This document shows, piece after piece, positions 34,386-42,340 of a stretch of DNA of 64,000 nt. Position 1 is the stretch's first letter. Each line of letters opens with the position of its first letter. This DNA is from Candidatus Ozemibacter sibiricus. GTDB taxonomy: Bacteria; Muiribacteriota; Ozemobacteria; Ozemobacterales; Ozemobacteraceae. The notes beneath the pieces are model-generated. The model saw only the letters and a list, made by a program, of their open reading frames with translations. It was not told where the DNA came from and ran no database searches. A program made the translations under genes and the position numbers. The stretch covers positions 1-64,000 of the forward strand of contig QOQW01000020.1 of the NCBI GenBank assembly GCA_003327425.1, given 5' to 3'.

Positions 34386-35030
34386 ATGGCCCGATCATGC
34401 CATCCCTTCCTTCGTCTCGCCGTCGTCGTCCTGGTGCTGTCGCTGCTCGGCCCCGCCCGGGCGGGGGCTGGTCTGCTGCCTCCCCCCGGCGAGGAGAAGA
34501 AGCCGGTCAAGCTCGAGAAGGTGGAGCGATCATTCGGGGTGAGATGGTTCCGGAAAGAAGGCTACAAAGACTTCTTCGAACCGCGCGTCGCCTTCATCAA
34601 GCGCAAGCCGCATTTCTCCGAAACGATCGAGTACGCCTGGCGGCCGATGGAGATCTTCGACATGCCGCACCGGGAGCGCATCGACCGGGTGCAATGCCTG
34701 TACAATCGCTACTATTTCGCCGGCCACGAGCGCCGTCTGTTCTATGGCGCGGGAGTGGGCGGCAACATCGTGCTGTTCAATCAGAAACTCAAGGACTGGG
34801 CGAAACAGCACCGCAACATCGATCTGCAAGATGGGGTCAACGGTCTCGGACGACTCTTCGTCGGGTACAAGGTCTCGCAGATCACGCTGGGCAAGAAGGT
34901 CTACCCCGTGGTCGTGCGAGTCGACGGGTTCTTCTCGCCCGATTACCGCTTCGGCGGCACTCTCGGCCGGGCCGGCGACCGGCTCGAACTGTCCGAGATC
35001 AAGGCCGACGTCGGGCTCAGCATCGAGTGA
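34386..35030 (+). CDS. Exported protein of unknown function
   Basis: A 214-residue protein with a signal peptide (residues 1-26, ending A-R-A-G). The mature part has many aromatic, strand-like segments (YNRYYFAGHERRLFYGAGVGGNIVLFN, YPVVVRVDGFFSPDYRFGG) suggestive of a small beta barrel or beta-rich periplasmic protein. No catalytic motif is apparent. The ATG has GAGAGG ahead. It is part of the plus-strand run 31.5-36.0 kb. Confidence 0.68.
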   Translation: MARSCHPFLRLAVVVLVLSLLGPARAGAGLLPPPGEEKKPVKLEKVERSFGVRWFRKEGYKDFFEPRVAFIKRKPHFSETIEYAWRPMEIFDMPHRERIDRVQCLYNRYYFAGHERRLFYGAGVGGNIVLFNQKLKDWAKQHRNIDLQDGVNGLGRLFVGYKVSQITLGKKVYPVVVRVDGFFSPDYRFGGTLGRAGDRLELSEIKADVGLSIE

Positions 35031-35049
35031 GGCCTGGCACGCCGCGGCC

Positions 35050-35979
35050 ATGAGCCGATTCGTCTTCGGTCCGGTTCCCTCGCGACGCCTGGGGCAGTCG
35101 CTCGGCGTCGACCTCACACCGACCAAGACCTGTACGCTCGACTGCCGTTACTGCCAGTTGGTGCCCACCTCCCATCCGACCACCGAACGGACGATGTTCT
35201 GCTCGCCCGAGGAGGTGCTGGCCGAACTGCGGCAGGTGCTGAGCAGCATCGCCGCGCCTGACTGGATCACCATCTCCGGCACCGGGGAACCTACCCTGCA
35301 CGCCGGCCTGGGCCGGATTCTCGAAGGCATCAGGGAACTGGGAATCGCGCCCTCCTGCGTCATCACCAACAGCACGCTGCTCGACCGCCCCGATGTACGG
35401 GCCGACCTGAGGCTGGCCGACCGCCTGCTACCCACCCTCTGCACCGTCCAGCCGGCGACCTTCGAGCGCATCCATCGGCCGGTGCCGGGTCTGCGCCTCG
35501 ATCGGATCCTGGACGGACTGCGCGAACTTGCCAGAAGCTATCAGGGCATTCTCGACCTGGAAATCTTCGTCTGCAAAGGGCTCAACGACACCCCCGAGGA
35601 GATCGAGGGTCTGCGCCGCTACCTGGCGACGCTGGCCCGCTTCGATGCCATCTACCTCAACACCGCCATCCGGCCGCCGCGCGATCCGGCGATCGTGGCG
35701 GCCACCCCGGAAGACCTGGAGGCCTTCCGCCGAGCGCTCGATCCTCGGTGGCGGGTGACCACAGCCTTCGAACACACGGCCCTGCCCCGACGGGTCGACC
35801 GCACACCGCCGCCGCCCCGGCAGGGAGTGCTCGATCTGCTGTTGCGGCATCCGTGCACCCCCGAGCAACTGGAGCGCGTGCTCAACCTCCCCGCGACCAC
35901 CCTGGCCGACACCCTGCATGCTCTCGAGCAGGAAGGCCGGATCGTGCGGTGTCCCGATGGCCAGTGGCGCCTGGCGTGA
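35050..35979 (+). CDS. Radical SAM protein (COG0731-like) with C-terminal winged helix
   Basis: A 309-residue radical SAM enzyme. It starts F-G-P-V-P-S-R-R-L-G-Q-S-L-G-V-D, the hallmark of this bacterial subfamily, followed by the cluster-binding C-T-L-D-C-R-Y-C motif (CxxxCxxC) and the S-A-M-binding G-T-G-E-P-T segment. The last 70 residues (LLLRHPCTPEQLERVLNLPATTLADTLHALEQEGRI) look like a winged helix for nucleic-acid binding. The reaction is unknown; relatives are loosely linked to tRNA modification. The start is the ATG at 35050. Confidence 0.85.
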   Translation: MSRFVFGPVPSRRLGQSLGVDLTPTKTCTLDCRYCQLVPTSHPTTERTMFCSPEEVLAELRQVLSSIAAPDWITISGTGEPTLHAGLGRILEGIRELGIAPSCVITNSTLLDRPDVRADLRLADRLLPTLCTVQPATFERIHRPVPGLRLDRILDGLRELARSYQGILDLEIFVCKGLNDTPEEIEGLRRYLATLARFDAIYLNTAIRPPRDPAIVAATPEDLEAFRRALDPRWRVTTAFEHTALPRRVDRTPPPPRQGVLDLLLRHPCTPEQLERVLNLPATTLADTLHALEQEGRIVRCPDGQWRLA

Positions 35980-36069: not shown

Positions 36070-37371
36070 CTACGAACCTAGCTGGGGTTGCAGTCGGAGC
36101 GAGCGAGTGCTGCCAGTCTCTTCCAAGTAGATGAGCTGGCGGGTCGGCTGGAAGCCGGGCGCGACCGCTTCCACCGCGTGATAGCCAGGCGGCAGACCAC
36201 GAAATACGGCCTGCCCGCGTCCATCGCTGGTCACCTGCCGATCGCCCAGCTTCACCGACGCTCCCCGCAGAGGTTGCCGGTCGGCGGCCGACTGCACCCG
36301 CACGGTGAGGGTGGCACGCAGCGGCTTCAGCAGGATGGACAGGTCGGAGCGGGTACCGGCGATATGCCGCAGGCGAAGGCTGGCGTGACCCGCCGCGGTG
36401 AACAACAGGTCGAGCTTGGCGCCCGGCGCCGGCAGGGGCAGGCGGAACCGGCCGTCAGCCGAAGGAGCCAGCGGCCGACCATTGGCCACCACTTGCGCGC
36501 CCACCACCGGCTGACGCTGGATGGAGTCACGCACCTCGATGGTCAGGACGGGCCCCGCCAGGCTCGGAGCGGAGGGCGCCGCCGCCCCCGCCGGGGTCGG
36601 CGAGGAGGTGGCAGCCCCCGACCGAGAGGCAGCATCGACAGGCGGCGCCACAACCGCGGCGTGATTCCCTGAACGCCAGGCCTGGACGGTCCGAGCCACG
36701 ATGCCCTGCCAGCGGTTCCGGTCGGCGATGGCTTCCGGCCGGAGATCGGACACCAGGGCGGCATCCATCACGCCCAGGCGGAACAGGCGCTCGAGGTCGG
36801 CCCGCAGCCAGGCCCAGCGCGGGGGAACCGCCACCGCCGCCACCGCTGGCCCGGTCGCGACCGCTAGCACGTTCCCTCGCTCCTCCAGCCACTTGAGCAA
36901 ACGGCTCCAGTGGTAGAGAGCTTCCCCCCAGCGGATCGCGAGGGTCGGCCGAAACGTTCGATCGGCGAATCCCCGCAGCAGAGCCGCTTGATCGAGCTGT
37001 TCGAGGAATGATCGCTGCTCGGTGGCGACATCCGAGAAGCTCTGAGAGGCGCACCGATGGCTGGGCGAGGCGACAGGAAGGGCGAGGCCCAGCTCGTCGA
37101 GCACCTGCTGCATCGATCCGGCCAGGTCGAGGCGGGTCAGATCGGCCGAGGCGGCGGCACTGGAAGTCTCCCCGACCCGGAGCATCGAGATGGCCGCCAG
37201 GGCCAGGGCCAGCCCGACGAAAGCCAGCCGCATCGTCAAACGCGGCCAGCGCGACCACGCCATGACAAAGAGGCCCACTCCGGCATTCCCATTCCTTCGG
37301 AACCGATCGAAATGGGTCGTTGCCAGGGAGAGGATACCCGGGCGATCAGTTCGCCGCCAGAGTGATGCCAT
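36070..37371 (-). CDS. Membrane-anchored SLH protein with two carboxypeptidase-regulatory-like domains
   Basis: A 433-residue protein. A membrane segment at about 47-65 is followed by two S-layer-homology-like repeats, residues about 125-175 (LLRGFADRTFRPTLAIRWGEAL) and 185-232 (LFRLGVMDAALVSDLRPEAIADR). After a Ser/Ala/Pro linker come two beta-sandwich domains of the carboxypeptidase-regulatory/PEGA type (QPVVGAQVVANGRPL and QPLRGASVKLGDRQV). SLH repeats bind cell-wall polymers, so it may link the inner membrane to peptidoglycan. The ATG at 37371 has GGAGAG and overlaps the upstream gene by 26 bases; an ATG at 37263 is the alternative. Confidence 0.65.
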   Translation of the reverse strand: MASLWRRTDRPGILSLATTHFDRFRRNGNAGVGLFVMAWSRWPRLTMRLAFVGLALALAAISMLRVGETSSAAASADLTRLDLAGSMQQVLDELGLALPVASPSHRCASQSFSDVATEQRSFLEQLDQAALLRGFADRTFRPTLAIRWGEALYHWSRLLKWLEERGNVLAVATGPAVAAVAVPPRWAWLRADLERLFRLGVMDAALVSDLRPEAIADRNRWQGIVARTVQAWRSGNHAAVVAPPVDAASRSGAATSSPTPAGAAAPSAPSLAGPVLTIEVRDSIQRQPVVGAQVVANGRPLAPSADGRFRLPLPAPGAKLDLLFTAAGHASLRLRHIAGTRSDLSILLKPLRATLTVRVQSAADRQPLRGASVKLGDRQVTSDGRGQAVFRGLPPGYHAVEAVAPGFQPTRQLIYLEETGSTRSLRLQPQLGS

Positions 37372-38317
37372 GGCTCTCCAGAAGGTTCTGAGCGAACGTG
37401 CGGGGGTTCACCCCGACCGGAACAGGTTCGAGCAGCGGTCGCGCGGCCACTTCAGGCGACAGGCGAGCGCCCAGAAGATCGAGGAAGCGAGGACCGCCGA
37501 TCTGCTGGAGGACGTCTCGCACGGTGGCGACCCCGCGCACCGGCTGGGCGAGGGGCTCGGCCGGCAGCTCGAGCAGAGGATTGTCGCGGCAGGTCAGCCA
37601 CCACCCATCGCTTTCCCGGCTCAGCTGCATGCCCATCCGCTCGGCCACCGCCCGCAAGGCCTCGAGCGCATTCCCCGCCCGGATCTGCGCCGTCACCTGG
37701 CGGGGCAGACCATCGCGGAACCGCAAGGTCACGCCAGCCGCCTGGGCCAGCTGGGTGATGATCGGCAGCGGATCGGCATGGCTGACCTGCAGGACGACCT
37801 CGCCGGTTTCCCCAGCCGGCTGAATGGGAGGCAGCGACCGGCGGCCCGGCCCCAGGAGGCGCGGCGCTTCCACGGTCCGATCGGGGGAACGCAGCACGCA
37901 GCGCAGCCGGGTTCCCGCGCGGGCGACTTTCAGGCGCGCGCCGTTGCTGGTATAGAGCGAGACCCGCTGGATCGGCGGATCGTCGTGGACCAGATCGACC
38001 CGGATGCCCAGCAGCGGCCACCGGAAGGAAGCCGGGAGCGAGGGAGCCACAGGCGGGGCGCCGCTGGTACCGATCAGGTCGATCTGCCAGCAGGCCTCTT
38101 GGGTCGAGTACCGAATGACCGGATCCTGGGGGACATCGAGATCGATGTCGAGCTGGACGGCCGCTCCCGTCGTTTCCTGGGTCACCTGCGTGACCACGGC
38201 GGCATTCCCGACCCTGACGAGCCCGAGTCCGAACAGCAGGGCGCCGATGACCAGAAGCCGACCCAACGGCCGTCGGCACCCGGCAAGCCGGCGATCAGCG
38301 AGAAGCGAGGCGACCAT
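37346..38317 (-). CDS. Exported secretin N-terminal (STN/AMIN-like) protein without a secretin pore
   Basis: A 323-residue exported protein with a signal segment at residues 20-38. Residues about 40-150 form a beta-rich domain like the AMIN domain in front of PilQ secretins. Residues about 170-235 match the STN fold (VSHADPLPIITQLAQAAGVTLRF, LEALRAVAERMGMQL). There is no N1 domain or secretin channel, so the protein stops where a PilQ would continue. It overlaps both operon neighbours. A role as peptidoglycan- or pilotin-like adapter for an envelope complex is inferred. Confidence 0.62.
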   Translation of the reverse strand: MVASLLADRRLAGCRRPLGRLLVIGALLFGLGLVRVGNAAVVTQVTQETTGAAVQLDIDLDVPQDPVIRYSTQEACWQIDLIGTSGAPPVAPSLPASFRWPLLGIRVDLVHDDPPIQRVSLYTSNGARLKVARAGTRLRCVLRSPDRTVEAPRLLGPGRRSLPPIQPAGETGEVVLQVSHADPLPIITQLAQAAGVTLRFRDGLPRQVTAQIRAGNALEALRAVAERMGMQLSRESDGWWLTCRDNPLLELPAEPLAQPVRGVATVRDVLQQIGGPRFLDLLGARLSPEVAARPLLEPVPVGVNPRTFAQNLLESHGITLAAN

Positions 38318-39797
38318 GATGTTCCAGCTCCATCAGCAGATCGGACAGCACCCCGAAGGCTTCCAGACGGGTCGGATGACGATCGACCAGCGACGCCTCG
38401 AGACCGCGATCGGATAGCGGCAAACCCAGCACCGACCGCACCTCGAGCAGGGAGCGGCGCAGATCGTCGCCCGTCATGGGCCCGGCCGGATCGGCGTAGC
38501 GCGGCGGCGTGGGCGTACCGGTCGCGCCGGCGGCTTGGAAGAGAGCGGTGAGCAGTCGCCGCCAGTCGTTGCCCAGGACGGGCTCGAAGGGTCGGGCCCG
38601 GCCTTCGGCGTCGGCCAGGGGCAGTTCGAGCCGCAACAGCGCCCGCCAGGCCAGATAGACCGGGTGATCGAGCGGCACATCGGTGAACCGCCCCGGATGA
38701 GGCAGGCCCGATGGCCACGCGACGAGGTGGTTCTGCCGCAGAGGACCATCAACAAGATCGATAGGCAGAAGCTGGATCTTCTCCTCCTCTTTCTGGTTGA
38801 TGACGGCCTCGATCGCCCGCACCTGTTCGACGGTCAACGGCGTCTCGGGGGCGGGCACCGCTCCCCAGGCCGCCCGCGCCAGAACGTCGGCTTCGGCCAG
38901 GGTGATGGCCAGATGGCGCGAGAGATAGCTCTGGAAATCGCTCCAACATACGGGTGGCGCCGCCACCGCCGAACCGCCCTGCACGCGTTGCGTGGCGAAG
39001 CCGAACAGGGGCAGCAGGAGGAACAATCCCACGGCGAGCCAGACCACCTTCCAGCCGTGTCGGCGCCAGGAGCCGCGCAGGAGCGAAGGCACTCTCGCGG
39101 CCCATTGGGGCATCCGGGAGAGGCGAGTCGGGCGGCGCCACCGCGTTCGTCTCGTTTTTCCGGGGTCAGGAGGGGCTGGCATCGATCGGCTCGCGGCGTC
39201 CGAGATTCCGAGCAGGACAGACTGATCCGTCGCGTCTTCGACGTCTGTTCGAGGCGAAGAGGCCGCCTCCGATGCAGGGAGAATCGCCTCGTCGACGACC
39301 GTCGCCTGAGCGGCGGCCACACCCGGCAGGCCACCGACCCCGGCGGAGGTCGATCGGAAGAACCGGCCACCGGGTTCGCCGGACCGGCGGGCCGGCGGCG
39401 GGCTTTTTTCCGACCGTGAGGCGGGTGGACGGGGAGGTTCTTGGGAGGCGCCCACCAGACGATGGAGAGGCAGGGGTGGACCGAACAGCAGGTCGGTGCG
39501 CACCGCGGAGGCGGCTCGCCTGGCAGCCGAAGGGGGCGGCGGCGCGGGATTGCCACATTTGCCGCAGAACCGCGCCACCCCCACGTTGGCCCGATGGCAC
39601 CGCAGACAGACCCATGGAGCCACAGAAGTTGCAGAAGTTGCAGAAGCCACGGAGGCCGCCAGCGCCGCGGCATTCACCGCGGACGGGTTCGGCCCGGCCC
39701 CGGAGCTGGCGGGTGAGGCGCCCGCGGCCTTCCCGACGTCGGCCACCCCCGACGATGGGCGCGGGGGCAGGAAAGCCGAGGTTCCGGATCTGGTCAT
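38295..39797 (-). CDS. Zinc-ribbon membrane protein with SLH-like periplasmic domain
   Basis: A 500-residue protein and first gene of the operon. A cytosolic zinc ribbon uses Cys64, Cys67, Cys78 and Cys81 (CLRC...CGKC). A long Pro/Ser/Arg-rich stretch leads to one membrane segment at about 248-268. The periplasmic part contains an SLH-like repeat (FTDVPLDHPVYLAWRALLRLELPL...R-P-F-E-P-V) at about 395-450. Thus it would read a cytosolic signal or partner and touch the cell wall outside. The ATG at 39797 has GGAGGAG five bases ahead; the frame extension upstream is not supported. It overlaps the next gene by 23 bases. Confidence 0.62.
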   Translation of the reverse strand: MTRSGTSAFLPPRPSSGVADVGKAAGASPASSGAGPNPSAVNAAALAASVASATSATSVAPWVCLRCHRANVGVARFCGKCGNPAPPPPSAARRAASAVRTDLLFGPPLPLHRLVGASQEPPRPPASRSEKSPPPARRSGEPGGRFFRSTSAGVGGLPGVAAAQATVVDEAILPASEAASSPRTDVEDATDQSVLLGISDAASRSMPAPPDPGKTRRTRWRRPTRLSRMPQWAARVPSLLRGSWRRHGWKVVWLAVGLFLLLPLFGFATQRVQGGSAVAAPPVCWSDFQSYLSRHLAITLAEADVLARAAWGAVPAPETPLTVEQVRAIEAVINQKEEEKIQLLPIDLVDGPLRQNHLVAWPSGLPHPGRFTDVPLDHPVYLAWRALLRLELPLADAEGRARPFEPVLGNDWRRLLTALFQAAGATGTPTPPRYADPAGPMTGDDLRRSLLEVRSVLGLPLSDRGLEASLVDRHPTRLEAFGVLSDLLMELEHHGRLASR

Positions 39798-39930: not shown

Positions 39931-40377
39931 ATGAAATCCGTCCAATGTCCCGTCTGCCATCAAGCGATCTACTCGGAAACCTTTTCGCCAGGGGAATCGT
40001 TCCCCTGCCCGCATTGCGAATTCCAGTTGATCGTCGAGACCTACGACCAGAATCCGAAGGTACACACTCCCGAAGATCTGTTCCAGAGCCTGAACTGGGC
40101 CCAGGGCATCTGGAAGAACGGCCGCCTGTTCCTGACCCCGCAGAAGCTGGCCGTGCTGGGCGAGATGTTCGTCCGGGCGATCGGGTTGACCGACTGGTCG
40201 CAGATGACCCCCGACCAGTTGCGACAGCGTCTGGCCGAAAGCGAACAGGCGCAGAAGATCCTCAAAGAGAAGAAGCTCGACCAGCCCGTTCTGCAGATCG
40301 AACGCATGCTGCTCGACCTCTTCCTGAACATCAAGCTGAAGGAAGTCGGCCAGCACGACTCCCGCCCGAACGGCTGA
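39931..40377 (+). CDS. Zinc-ribbon protein of unknown function
   Basis: A 148-residue cytosolic protein. Residues 6-29 form a zinc ribbon with two C-x-x-C knuckles (CPVC and CPHC). The rest is helical and charged (LRQRLAESEQAQKILKEKKL), ending with a hydrophobic helix (IERMLLDLFLNIKL). It has its own promoter and is a single-gene unit between convergent neighbours. No family is recognised beyond the ribbon. Confidence 0.72.
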   Translation: MKSVQCPVCHQAIYSETFSPGESFPCPHCEFQLIVETYDQNPKVHTPEDLFQSLNWAQGIWKNGRLFLTPQKLAVLGEMFVRAIGLTDWSQMTPDQLRQRLAESEQAQKILKEKKLDQPVLQIERMLLDLFLNIKLKEVGQHDSRPNG

Positions 40378-40492: not shown

Positions 40493-42340
40493 TCAGCTTC
40501 CTGAGCCGCCCTTGGTGGGAGGCAGATCTTTGGTTTGGATCGGCGGATAAGGCTGGGAGGAGGGGGTCGCGGGGATAGCCGGTTCTTCGCGGGTGGGGCC
40601 CACCGCATTGCCGGGAGGAATGACCGGCGGATAGGGCTGGCTTTCCAGCTTGGGTTTCCCTTCCATGGCCATCATGGGCGGGTAGGGCTGGCTTTCCAGG
40701 GGGACTCCCTGGACGCCGGGACCGGCCTCGGCCTCGTTCATCTCGACGGCCTGCTCGTCGGCCCGCAGGACCATGTCATCGGAATCGGGCAGTTTCTCGA
40801 AATACTGGAACAGCTTCTTTTCGAACGCCGCCAGGAACGCTTCGACGCACTTGGGATCGAACTGCTTGCCCGAGAACTTCTTGAGTTCGCCGACCGCCAC
40901 ATTGACGCTCAGCCCTTTGCGATAGGGACGGTTGGTGGTCATGGCGTCGAAGGCGTCGGCCACGCAGATGATGCGCCCGATGAGGGGGATGTCTTCGCCG
41001 GCCAGATGGGCGGGGTAGCCACGCCCATCGTAGTATTCGTGGTGGTGCAGGACGCCGGGAATCTTGTCGGCCAGGAAGTCGACCGGCCGGAGGATGCGGG
41101 CCCCGATCTCGGGGTGCCGTTTGATGATGGCATATTCTTCGTCGGTGAGGCGGCCGGGCTTGCGGATGATGCTGTCTTTGATGCCGATCTTGCCGACATC
41201 ATGGAGCAGCCCGGCATACCGGACATTCTCGAGTTCCTTGCGGTCCATGTTCAGTTCTTCGGCGACCGCCACCGAATACTGGGTCACCCGGCGGGAATGG
41301 CCCTGGGTGTAGGGATCTTTGGCATCGATGGCCGTGGCCAGCACCTCGATGGTGGCCAGGTAGACCTTCTGGATGTTCTCGTACAGGCGGGCGTTGTCGA
41401 TCGCCGACACGGCCTGGTTGGCCACCGCCTCGAGAATCTCGATGTCATGGTCATTGAAGGGGATGTCGCCGGTCCGGTTGAGGACCTGCAGCACCCCGAT
41501 GACTTCGTCTTTCAGGCGCATCGGCACGCAGATCATCGACCGGGTGACGAACCCCGATTTCTTGTCGGCGCCCTTGAAGAACCGCGGATCTTTGGAGGTA
41601 TCTGGGACGATGACCGGCTTGTTCTCTTTGGCGCACCACCCGGCCAGGCCGGTACCCATGGGCAGCCTGATCTCTTGCAGCTTGGCCCCGACCTTGGCAT
41701 CGCCCTGCACGATGTGGAAGTACAGCTCGTTGGTGGCTTTGTCGATCAGGTAGACGGTGGAGGTTTCGCACCGCATGACCTGCGTGGCCATTCCCATGAT
41801 CTTGCGCAACAGCTCGTTGAGATCGAGGGTCGAACTGATCGCCTTGCCGACTTCGAGCAGCGTGGCCAGCTCGGCCATCTGCAGCTGGATCAGCTCGACC
41901 TCCATGAAGCGGCTGATGGCGTCGGTAGCCATCTGACGGAAGGCGTCGAGGCCCTCCAGTTCGGCCTCGCCCATCCACGGCATGATCAGCACCCCGAACG
42001 GCTGGGCCGGATGACCGAGGGGAATGAAGTGGCGAACGGTGCCGTCGGCCAGGGTCACGATCTCGGACGAGACCGGCAGGTTGCCCAGACGCGAGGCGGT
42101 CAGGCTCTGGCAATGCGGCTTCAGAGATTCGGGGTCGAACCCGCTGTTGTAGCGAACCCGCGAGGTCTTGGTGGCGGCATCATAGAAGATGACGGCGAAC
42201 CCAGGCCGGCCCGTCAGGTCGTAAGCCGTCTTCTGCAAGACGTCGAGCATGGCGTTGGTGTCCTTGCCGCAGGACGAGAGAATCTGGCGCTGCGCCTTGA
42301 AGAGCAGCTCCAATTTCTCGCGGCTCAGGGTCTCAGCCAC
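40493..42340 (-). CDS. GAF-GAF-HD-GYP c-di-GMP phosphodiesterase
   Basis: A 615-residue cytosolic protein. Two GAF-like domains (about residues 20-150 and 165-315) precede an HD-GYP domain (about 330-500). The latter shows H-D-V-G-K-I-G, the H-H-E-Y-Y-D-G-R-G-Y-P signature and CVADAFDAMTTNRPYRKG, so it should hydrolyse c-di-GMP. The final 75 residues are low-complexity, with three spaced copies of S-Q-P-Y-P-P. The GTG start at 42340 overlaps the end of a possible small gene by 8 bases. It opposes the two GGDEF cyclases in the window. Confidence 0.9.
   Translation of the reverse strand: MAETLSREKLELLFKAQRQILSSCGKDTNAMLDVLQKTAYDLTGRPGFAVIFYDAATKTSRVRYNSGFDPESLKPHCQSLTASRLGNLPVSSEIVTLADGTVRHFIPLGHPAQPFGVLIMPWMGEAELEGLDAFRQMATDAISRFMEVELIQLQMAELATLLEVGKAISSTLDLNELLRKIMGMATQVMRCETSTVYLIDKATNELYFHIVQGDAKVGAKLQEIRLPMGTGLAGWCAKENKPVIVPDTSKDPRFFKGADKKSGFVTRSMICVPMRLKDEVIGVLQVLNRTGDIPFNDHDIEILEAVANQAVSAIDNARLYENIQKVYLATIEVLATAIDAKDPYTQGHSRRVTQYSVAVAEELNMDRKELENVRYAGLLHDVGKIGIKDSIIRKPGRLTDEEYAIIKRHPEIGARILRPVDFLADKIPGVLHHHEYYDGRGYPAHLAGEDIPLIGRIICVADAFDAMTTNRPYRKGLSVNVAVGELKKFSGKQFDPKCVEAFLAAFEKKLFQYFEKLPDSDDMVLRADEQAVEMNEAEAGPGVQGVPLESQPYPPMMAMEGKPKLESQPYPPVIPPGNAVGPTREEPAIPATPSSQPYPPIQTKDLPPTKGGSGS

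Follow-up and report, generated by a model that had tools for sequence, protein, structure and literature searches.

A poreless paralogue of the type IV pilus secretin module, accompanied by SLH-like membrane proteins, in Candidatus Ozemobacteraceae

The fixing of secretins and pilus machines to the cell wall is known mainly from Proteobacteria, where it involves AMIN domains, LysM domains and GspA/B. In Myxococcus, PilQ binds peptidoglycan through its AMIN domains, which also determine its polar placement (PMC10653833). OutB/GspB, an inner-membrane protein, anchors the secretin to the inner membrane and the wall via the secretin N0 domain (PMC9239104). The SLH domains of OmpM and SlpA, meanwhile, bind modified peptidoglycan or wall polymer (PMC10628300, PMC9388160). 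Among open-licence papers, no description of an SLH-PilQ accessory or of a poreless secretin was found.

The operon considered here, ABC, occupies positions 36070-39797 of the window, the 64,000-nucleotide stretch of DNA that was analysed, in a genome from Candidatus Ozemobacteraceae (Riflebacteria). A sequence-only reading had placed three overlapping minus-strand genes at this location and the open reading frames bear this out, with successive ends overlapping by 23 bases (A/B) and 26 bases (B/C) in ORF coordinates. The start of gene A at 39797 is consistent with its orthologue in genome G002. The genes and their neighbours are as follows.

34744-35979, plus strand: radical SAM protein with a winged helix, the convergent neighbour downstream of C, kept in most relatives.
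36070-37371, minus strand: gene C, 433 residues; membrane helix, SLH-like repeats (LTRLDLA ... LLRGFADRTFRP) and two CarboxypepD_reg domains.
37346-38317, minus strand: gene B, 323 residues; signal/membrane helix, then an AMIN-like beta sandwich (42-143), an STN/N0 domain (174-243) and a helical tail corresponding to where PilQ N1 begins; the secretin pore domain is absent.
38295-39797, minus strand: gene A, 500 residues; zinc ribbon at about residues 64-84, then an extended disordered linker, a membrane helix (about 239-272) and a helical SLH-like part, predicted to be periplasmic.
39931-40377, plus strand: small protein with a CxxC pair resembling a zinc ribbon; several relatives also have it between A and the HD-GYP gene.
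40493-42340, minus strand: GAF plus HD-GYP type protein, the upstream neighbour of A, often kept beside the operon.

Protein B corresponds to the N-terminal region of PilQ. Its AlphaFold model (pLDDT 83) opens with a signal helix, which is followed by an 8-strand sandwich and a beta-alpha-beta domain of STN type, and the tail is helical; the best Foldseek match of the model is PilQ (4av2, E 5.5e-6). The best profile match is also a PilQ (9sh1, E 1.7e-4), with the AMIN region of PilQ aligned, and the N0/STN domain is identified by the predicted fold together with PilQ/HofQ profile matches. Pfam names no family in the window copy of B and finds AMIN in one B orthologue only (E 9e-4); the STN/N0 domain is kept in 19/19 aligned copies. 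Set against full-length PilQ of relatives, the B profile aligns to position 300-306 of 309, covering AMIN, N0 and the first part of N1. The order of folds is thus that of PilQ, with homology across nearly the whole of B, but B stops inside N1, has no pore and sits with A and C away from pilus genes. The secretin pore domain PF00263 has no match on contig C14; B stops at 323 residues and C starts in another frame. Truncated inside N1, B cannot form an outer-membrane pore, and it is not a secretin. A second poreless secretin-type protein, of about 200 residues and consisting of STN and half of N1, occurs in the window's genome (G000) and in G002 (L089 9495-10091, L096 3183-3803), on a contig in G000 that has no secretin match.

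Pfam and NCBIfam name little in the window copies alone, and the domain calls lean on sets of orthologues. For the zinc ribbon of A, the window copy gives a weak Pfam match (E 0.007), but 13-15 of 19 orthologues match (best 7e-6). Within its presumed periplasmic part, A has the SLH-like sequence FTDVPLDHPVY and, close to the C terminus, a TRLE motif; the residues R477 (of TRLE), D373, H378 and Y381 are invariant across 19 orthologues. The A profile matches the SLH domain of OmpM, an outer-membrane tether of Veillonella (8bym, E 4.6e-4; 8bz2, E 4.8e-4), whilst the top Foldseek match of the predicted structure is the Sap SLH domain 3pyw, with a probability of 0.95 but an E-value of 0.17 that is weak alone. 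In the window copy of C, CarboxypepD_reg is found in two stretches (Pfam E 3e-16), and orthologues have one or two such domains. Pfam detects SLH in 10/21 C orthologues (best 5.4e-8) and reaches none in the window copies of A and C alone; the C profile also matches OmpM SLH. For C the domain calls come from sequence alone, the AlphaFold models being those of B and A, and its second SLH-like repeat is a putative one. The profiles of A and C match one another (hhalign probability 89.8), and the residues of the TRLE/LTRxD motifs are present. A and C resemble the OmpM and SlpA tethers in having an SLH domain expected to face peptidoglycan in the periplasm, but differ from them in possessing an inner-membrane helix and in lacking a barrel or coiled-coil stalk; A ends in SLH-like helices and C in CarboxypepD_reg domains, neither with an outer-membrane barrel.

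These results agree with much of the sequence-only reading. A is, as it proposed, a zinc ribbon, one membrane segment and an SLH-like part (from the orthologue Pfam matches and the OmpM SLH profile match), and B an exported AMIN/STN-like protein that ends where PilQ continues (from the PilQ fold, profile and full-length alignment). The SLH and STN folds are likewise supported by structure prediction and profiles, through Foldseek and OmpM for A and PilQ for B. C has its membrane anchor, and its SLH-like part and two CarboxypepD_reg domains are upheld by Pfam and profiles, the second of its two proposed SLH-like repeats keeping its provisional standing. The suggestion of a trans-envelope complex joining inner membrane, wall and outer-membrane machinery survives in part: the picture of a periplasmic, wall-facing, membrane-anchored and secretin-related complex stands, whereas a reach to the outer membrane finds no support, and B lacks the portion that would provide it.

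A search with the A profile located A-like proteins adjoining PilQ-like secretins. The pilus loci concerned read pilB-M-N-O-P-C and pilQ, then C' (membrane helix, SLH-like part, two CarboxypepD_reg domains), and next A' and two pseudopilin genes. A complete PilQ is directly followed by C' in nine family genomes, four of which also have A'; genomes with both copies are G004, G005, G007, G008, G012, G014, G016, G021 and G023. All three members of ABC are homologous to this trio, the operon profiles matching A' at E 7e-39, PilQ at E 4e-33 and C' at E 1e-50, and pilQ overlaps C' in most pilus loci just as B overlaps C. In trees of A/A', B/PilQ and C/C', one branch parts the operon copies from the pilus-locus copies, with support of 100/99, 100/99 and 98/98, respectively. 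This single-branch split, together with the presence of both copies in the same genomes, indicates that the trio was duplicated; descent of ABC and the pilus-locus trio from one duplication is well supported, as is, in the sense of descent, the description of ABC as a poreless paralogue of the secretin (wall-anchoring) end of the type IV pilus machine. The trees alone give no order of age between the two copies, although it would be simpler for a full PilQ to have lost its pore. The sequence-only reading had called the complex undescribed. The open-licence literature offers nothing against this, yet with a paralogous trio present in type IV pilus loci, ABC looks less like something wholly undescribed than like a pore-free duplicate of a pilus secretin module. 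In G001, a further C' of 627 residues with a clear Pfam SLH match (1.2e-11) stands beside another secretin locus.

In line with the sequence-only reading, the trio stays together throughout the family, with the order A-B-C in 20/24 genomes. ABC is cut by contig ends in G016 and G023 and is thus found in 22/24, whilst B was not seen in G013 and G020, each about 70% complete. In 16 genomes belonging to other families of the phylum, there was no match to B or to the full A profile, only to short STN, zinc-ribbon or generic SLH stretches, and a wide genome scan with a four-sequence B subset returned only three close relatives (CALLCO010000131, JAAYVD010000040 and MNYA01000385, from Candidatus Ozemobacteraceae / Riflebacteria MAGs). 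Compared with G002, the dN/dS values are 0.36 for A, 0.19 for B, 0.34 for C and 0.07 for the HD-GYP neighbour. ABC is under purifying selection (dN/dS 0.19-0.36 between the two closest copies), and this, with the kept gene order, argues that the arrangement is not due to chance. Not every part is essential, since A of four g4 genomes (L044, L047, L048, L049), only about 155 residues long, has no zinc ribbon but retains the SLH-like part, and C of G003 (L040 10354-11121) has lost its SLH part, with a lipobox-like LLGC replacing the plain membrane helix. It might be supposed that ABC is a decaying relic of a second pilus locus with no present function, given that B is a shortened PilQ, that the sequences diverge fast and that an in-frame stop lies in the B stretch of the G008 assembly. 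This is very improbable: purifying selection already contradicts it, the order persists in 20 genomes and the split is of family-wide age. In the G008 stretch (L045 1083-4722), where the stop interrupts B, C looks by eye like the longer pilus-locus form.

The surroundings of ABC are often kept, with genes for GAF-HD-GYP, radical SAM, TPR, PRPP synthetase and nucleotidyltransferase proteins, and in genus g6 ABC occurs as a unit in a different gene context. The radical SAM neighbour probably reflects mere synteny, and a regulatory link of the GAF-HD-GYP neighbour to ABC is possible; in G010 (L038) the HD-GYP gene lies about 70 bases upstream of A. ABC could accordingly be viewed as a module for envelope sensing or regulation, in which the zinc ribbon of A, on the cytoplasmic side, would report wall or pilus state, perhaps with the HD-GYP neighbour. 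The make-up of A, a zinc ribbon, a single membrane helix and a periplasmic domain, suits such a role, and many genomes have a GAF-HD-GYP gene upstream in the same orientation. A of the four g4 genomes, however, has dispensed with the ribbon and retained the rest, no match to the HD-GYP gene lies beside ABC in g6, and its synteny may be general gene-order conservation, so that a sensing role seems quite improbable.

Separate from ABC, a core pilM-N-O-P-P-Q locus (G000 contig C38, L085) is present family-wide, recognised by Pfam PilM, PilN, PilO and Secretin, with its two PilP-like genes named by position. The same stretch (G000:C38:6001-26000) continues into genes that read as flagellar flgF, flgG, flgA, flgH and flgI. 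The core PilQ, of 461 residues, passes from its signal peptide straight into N0 and has no AMIN domain. Homologues at 62-95% identity occur in 21/24 family genomes, and the three seeming exceptions have PilM of the core locus. G012 was rejected as a genome without core PilQ, the stretch being masked with N, and in G021 the contig ends there; the losses thus provide no contrast. Nor does co-occurrence of ABC with pilus genes, as the latter are universal in the family; ABC and a core PilQ without AMIN accompany each other throughout, with no contrast by which to prove a link.

The reading we favour, tentatively and at slightly less than even confidence, is that ABC may act as a platform at the inner membrane, facing peptidoglycan, on which pilus-type machines dock or are anchored. 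A and C would be held in the inner membrane, with their putative periplasmic SLH domains gripping peptidoglycan or wall polymer. B would be exported, its AMIN domain binding peptidoglycan and its STN/N0 domain docking with the PilP-type part that normally meets PilQ N0, with a secretin, or with C. The AMIN-less core PilQ would in this way gain wall binding in trans, with ABC serving to dock or position the pilus-type machines. The working analogy is the GspB/OutB scaffold (with GspA) of type II secretion, with which ABC shares a single membrane helix, a periplasmic part and the expected docking to secretin N0 and anchoring to the wall. It differs in having SLH and CarboxypepD_reg in place of the periplasmic HR domain, for which Pfam gave no match among orthologues of A, B and C at E-values up to 0.1, and in coming from a different phylum. 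TsaP and other LysM-type secretin anchors have the same expected role of fixing the pilus secretin to peptidoglycan; ABC by contrast has SLH and AMIN, and Pfam finds no LysM domain in A, B or C orthologues. Several observations count against the platform: the operon lies outside pilus loci, the universal presence of pilus genes deprives co-occurrence of contrast, the PilQ of the second pilus locus carries its own AMIN domain in several genomes, A and C have degenerate SLH domains, and neither the zinc ribbon of A nor the SLH part of C is kept in every genome.

The window's genome encodes OmpM/SlpA-like SLH porins (L090 7263-9455 and L091 8615-10951), which point to SLH-type outer-membrane tethering in Riflebacteria. 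The L090 porin, the one compared with a structure database (8bys, E 1e-20; SlpA, E 9.5e-19), suggests that an SLH ligand is present in the wall of this organism and is likely in use; in a search for CsaB, all relatives in the genomes score under the curated cut-off. Elsewhere, a short secretin of 331 residues without N0/N1 (L086 6852-7847) has an SLH multi-repeat membrane protein (444 residues) and PilC/PilB-like genes a few kb away, and this locus is possibly a split secretin system. The porins would also be in keeping with a different fate for ABC, namely that after duplication it departed from the pilus machine to become a stand-alone inner membrane-peptidoglycan tether or envelope spacer, the inner-membrane counterpart of the OmpM-type tether. 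Wall-binding-type domains and an N-terminal membrane/signal helix in all three proteins, the lost pore, the distance from pilus loci and the altered context in g6 are all compatible with this. Yet STN/N0 is a protein-docking domain, which a plain tether would not need, and every one of the aligned B copies has it; divergence is moreover fast for a housekeeping tether. A tether of this kind seems unlikely.

Returning to the platform, it is attractive, if on balance doubtful, to consider that Riflebacteria anchor type IV pilus-type machines by a new type of wall anchor, made of SLH proteins (A/A' and C/C') and not of LysM or GspA/GspB proteins, with the pore-free duplicate as a separate inner-membrane secretin-like hub that gives the AMIN-less core PilQ wall binding in trans. 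The ABC trio points to an SLH-based solution to wall anchoring in a phylum that has received little study and possesses OmpM-type SLH porins, and B represents a secretin N-terminal region that has persisted without its pore. ABC supplies concrete proteins with which to ask whether SLH domains anchor nanomachines, besides S-layers and outer-membrane tethers.
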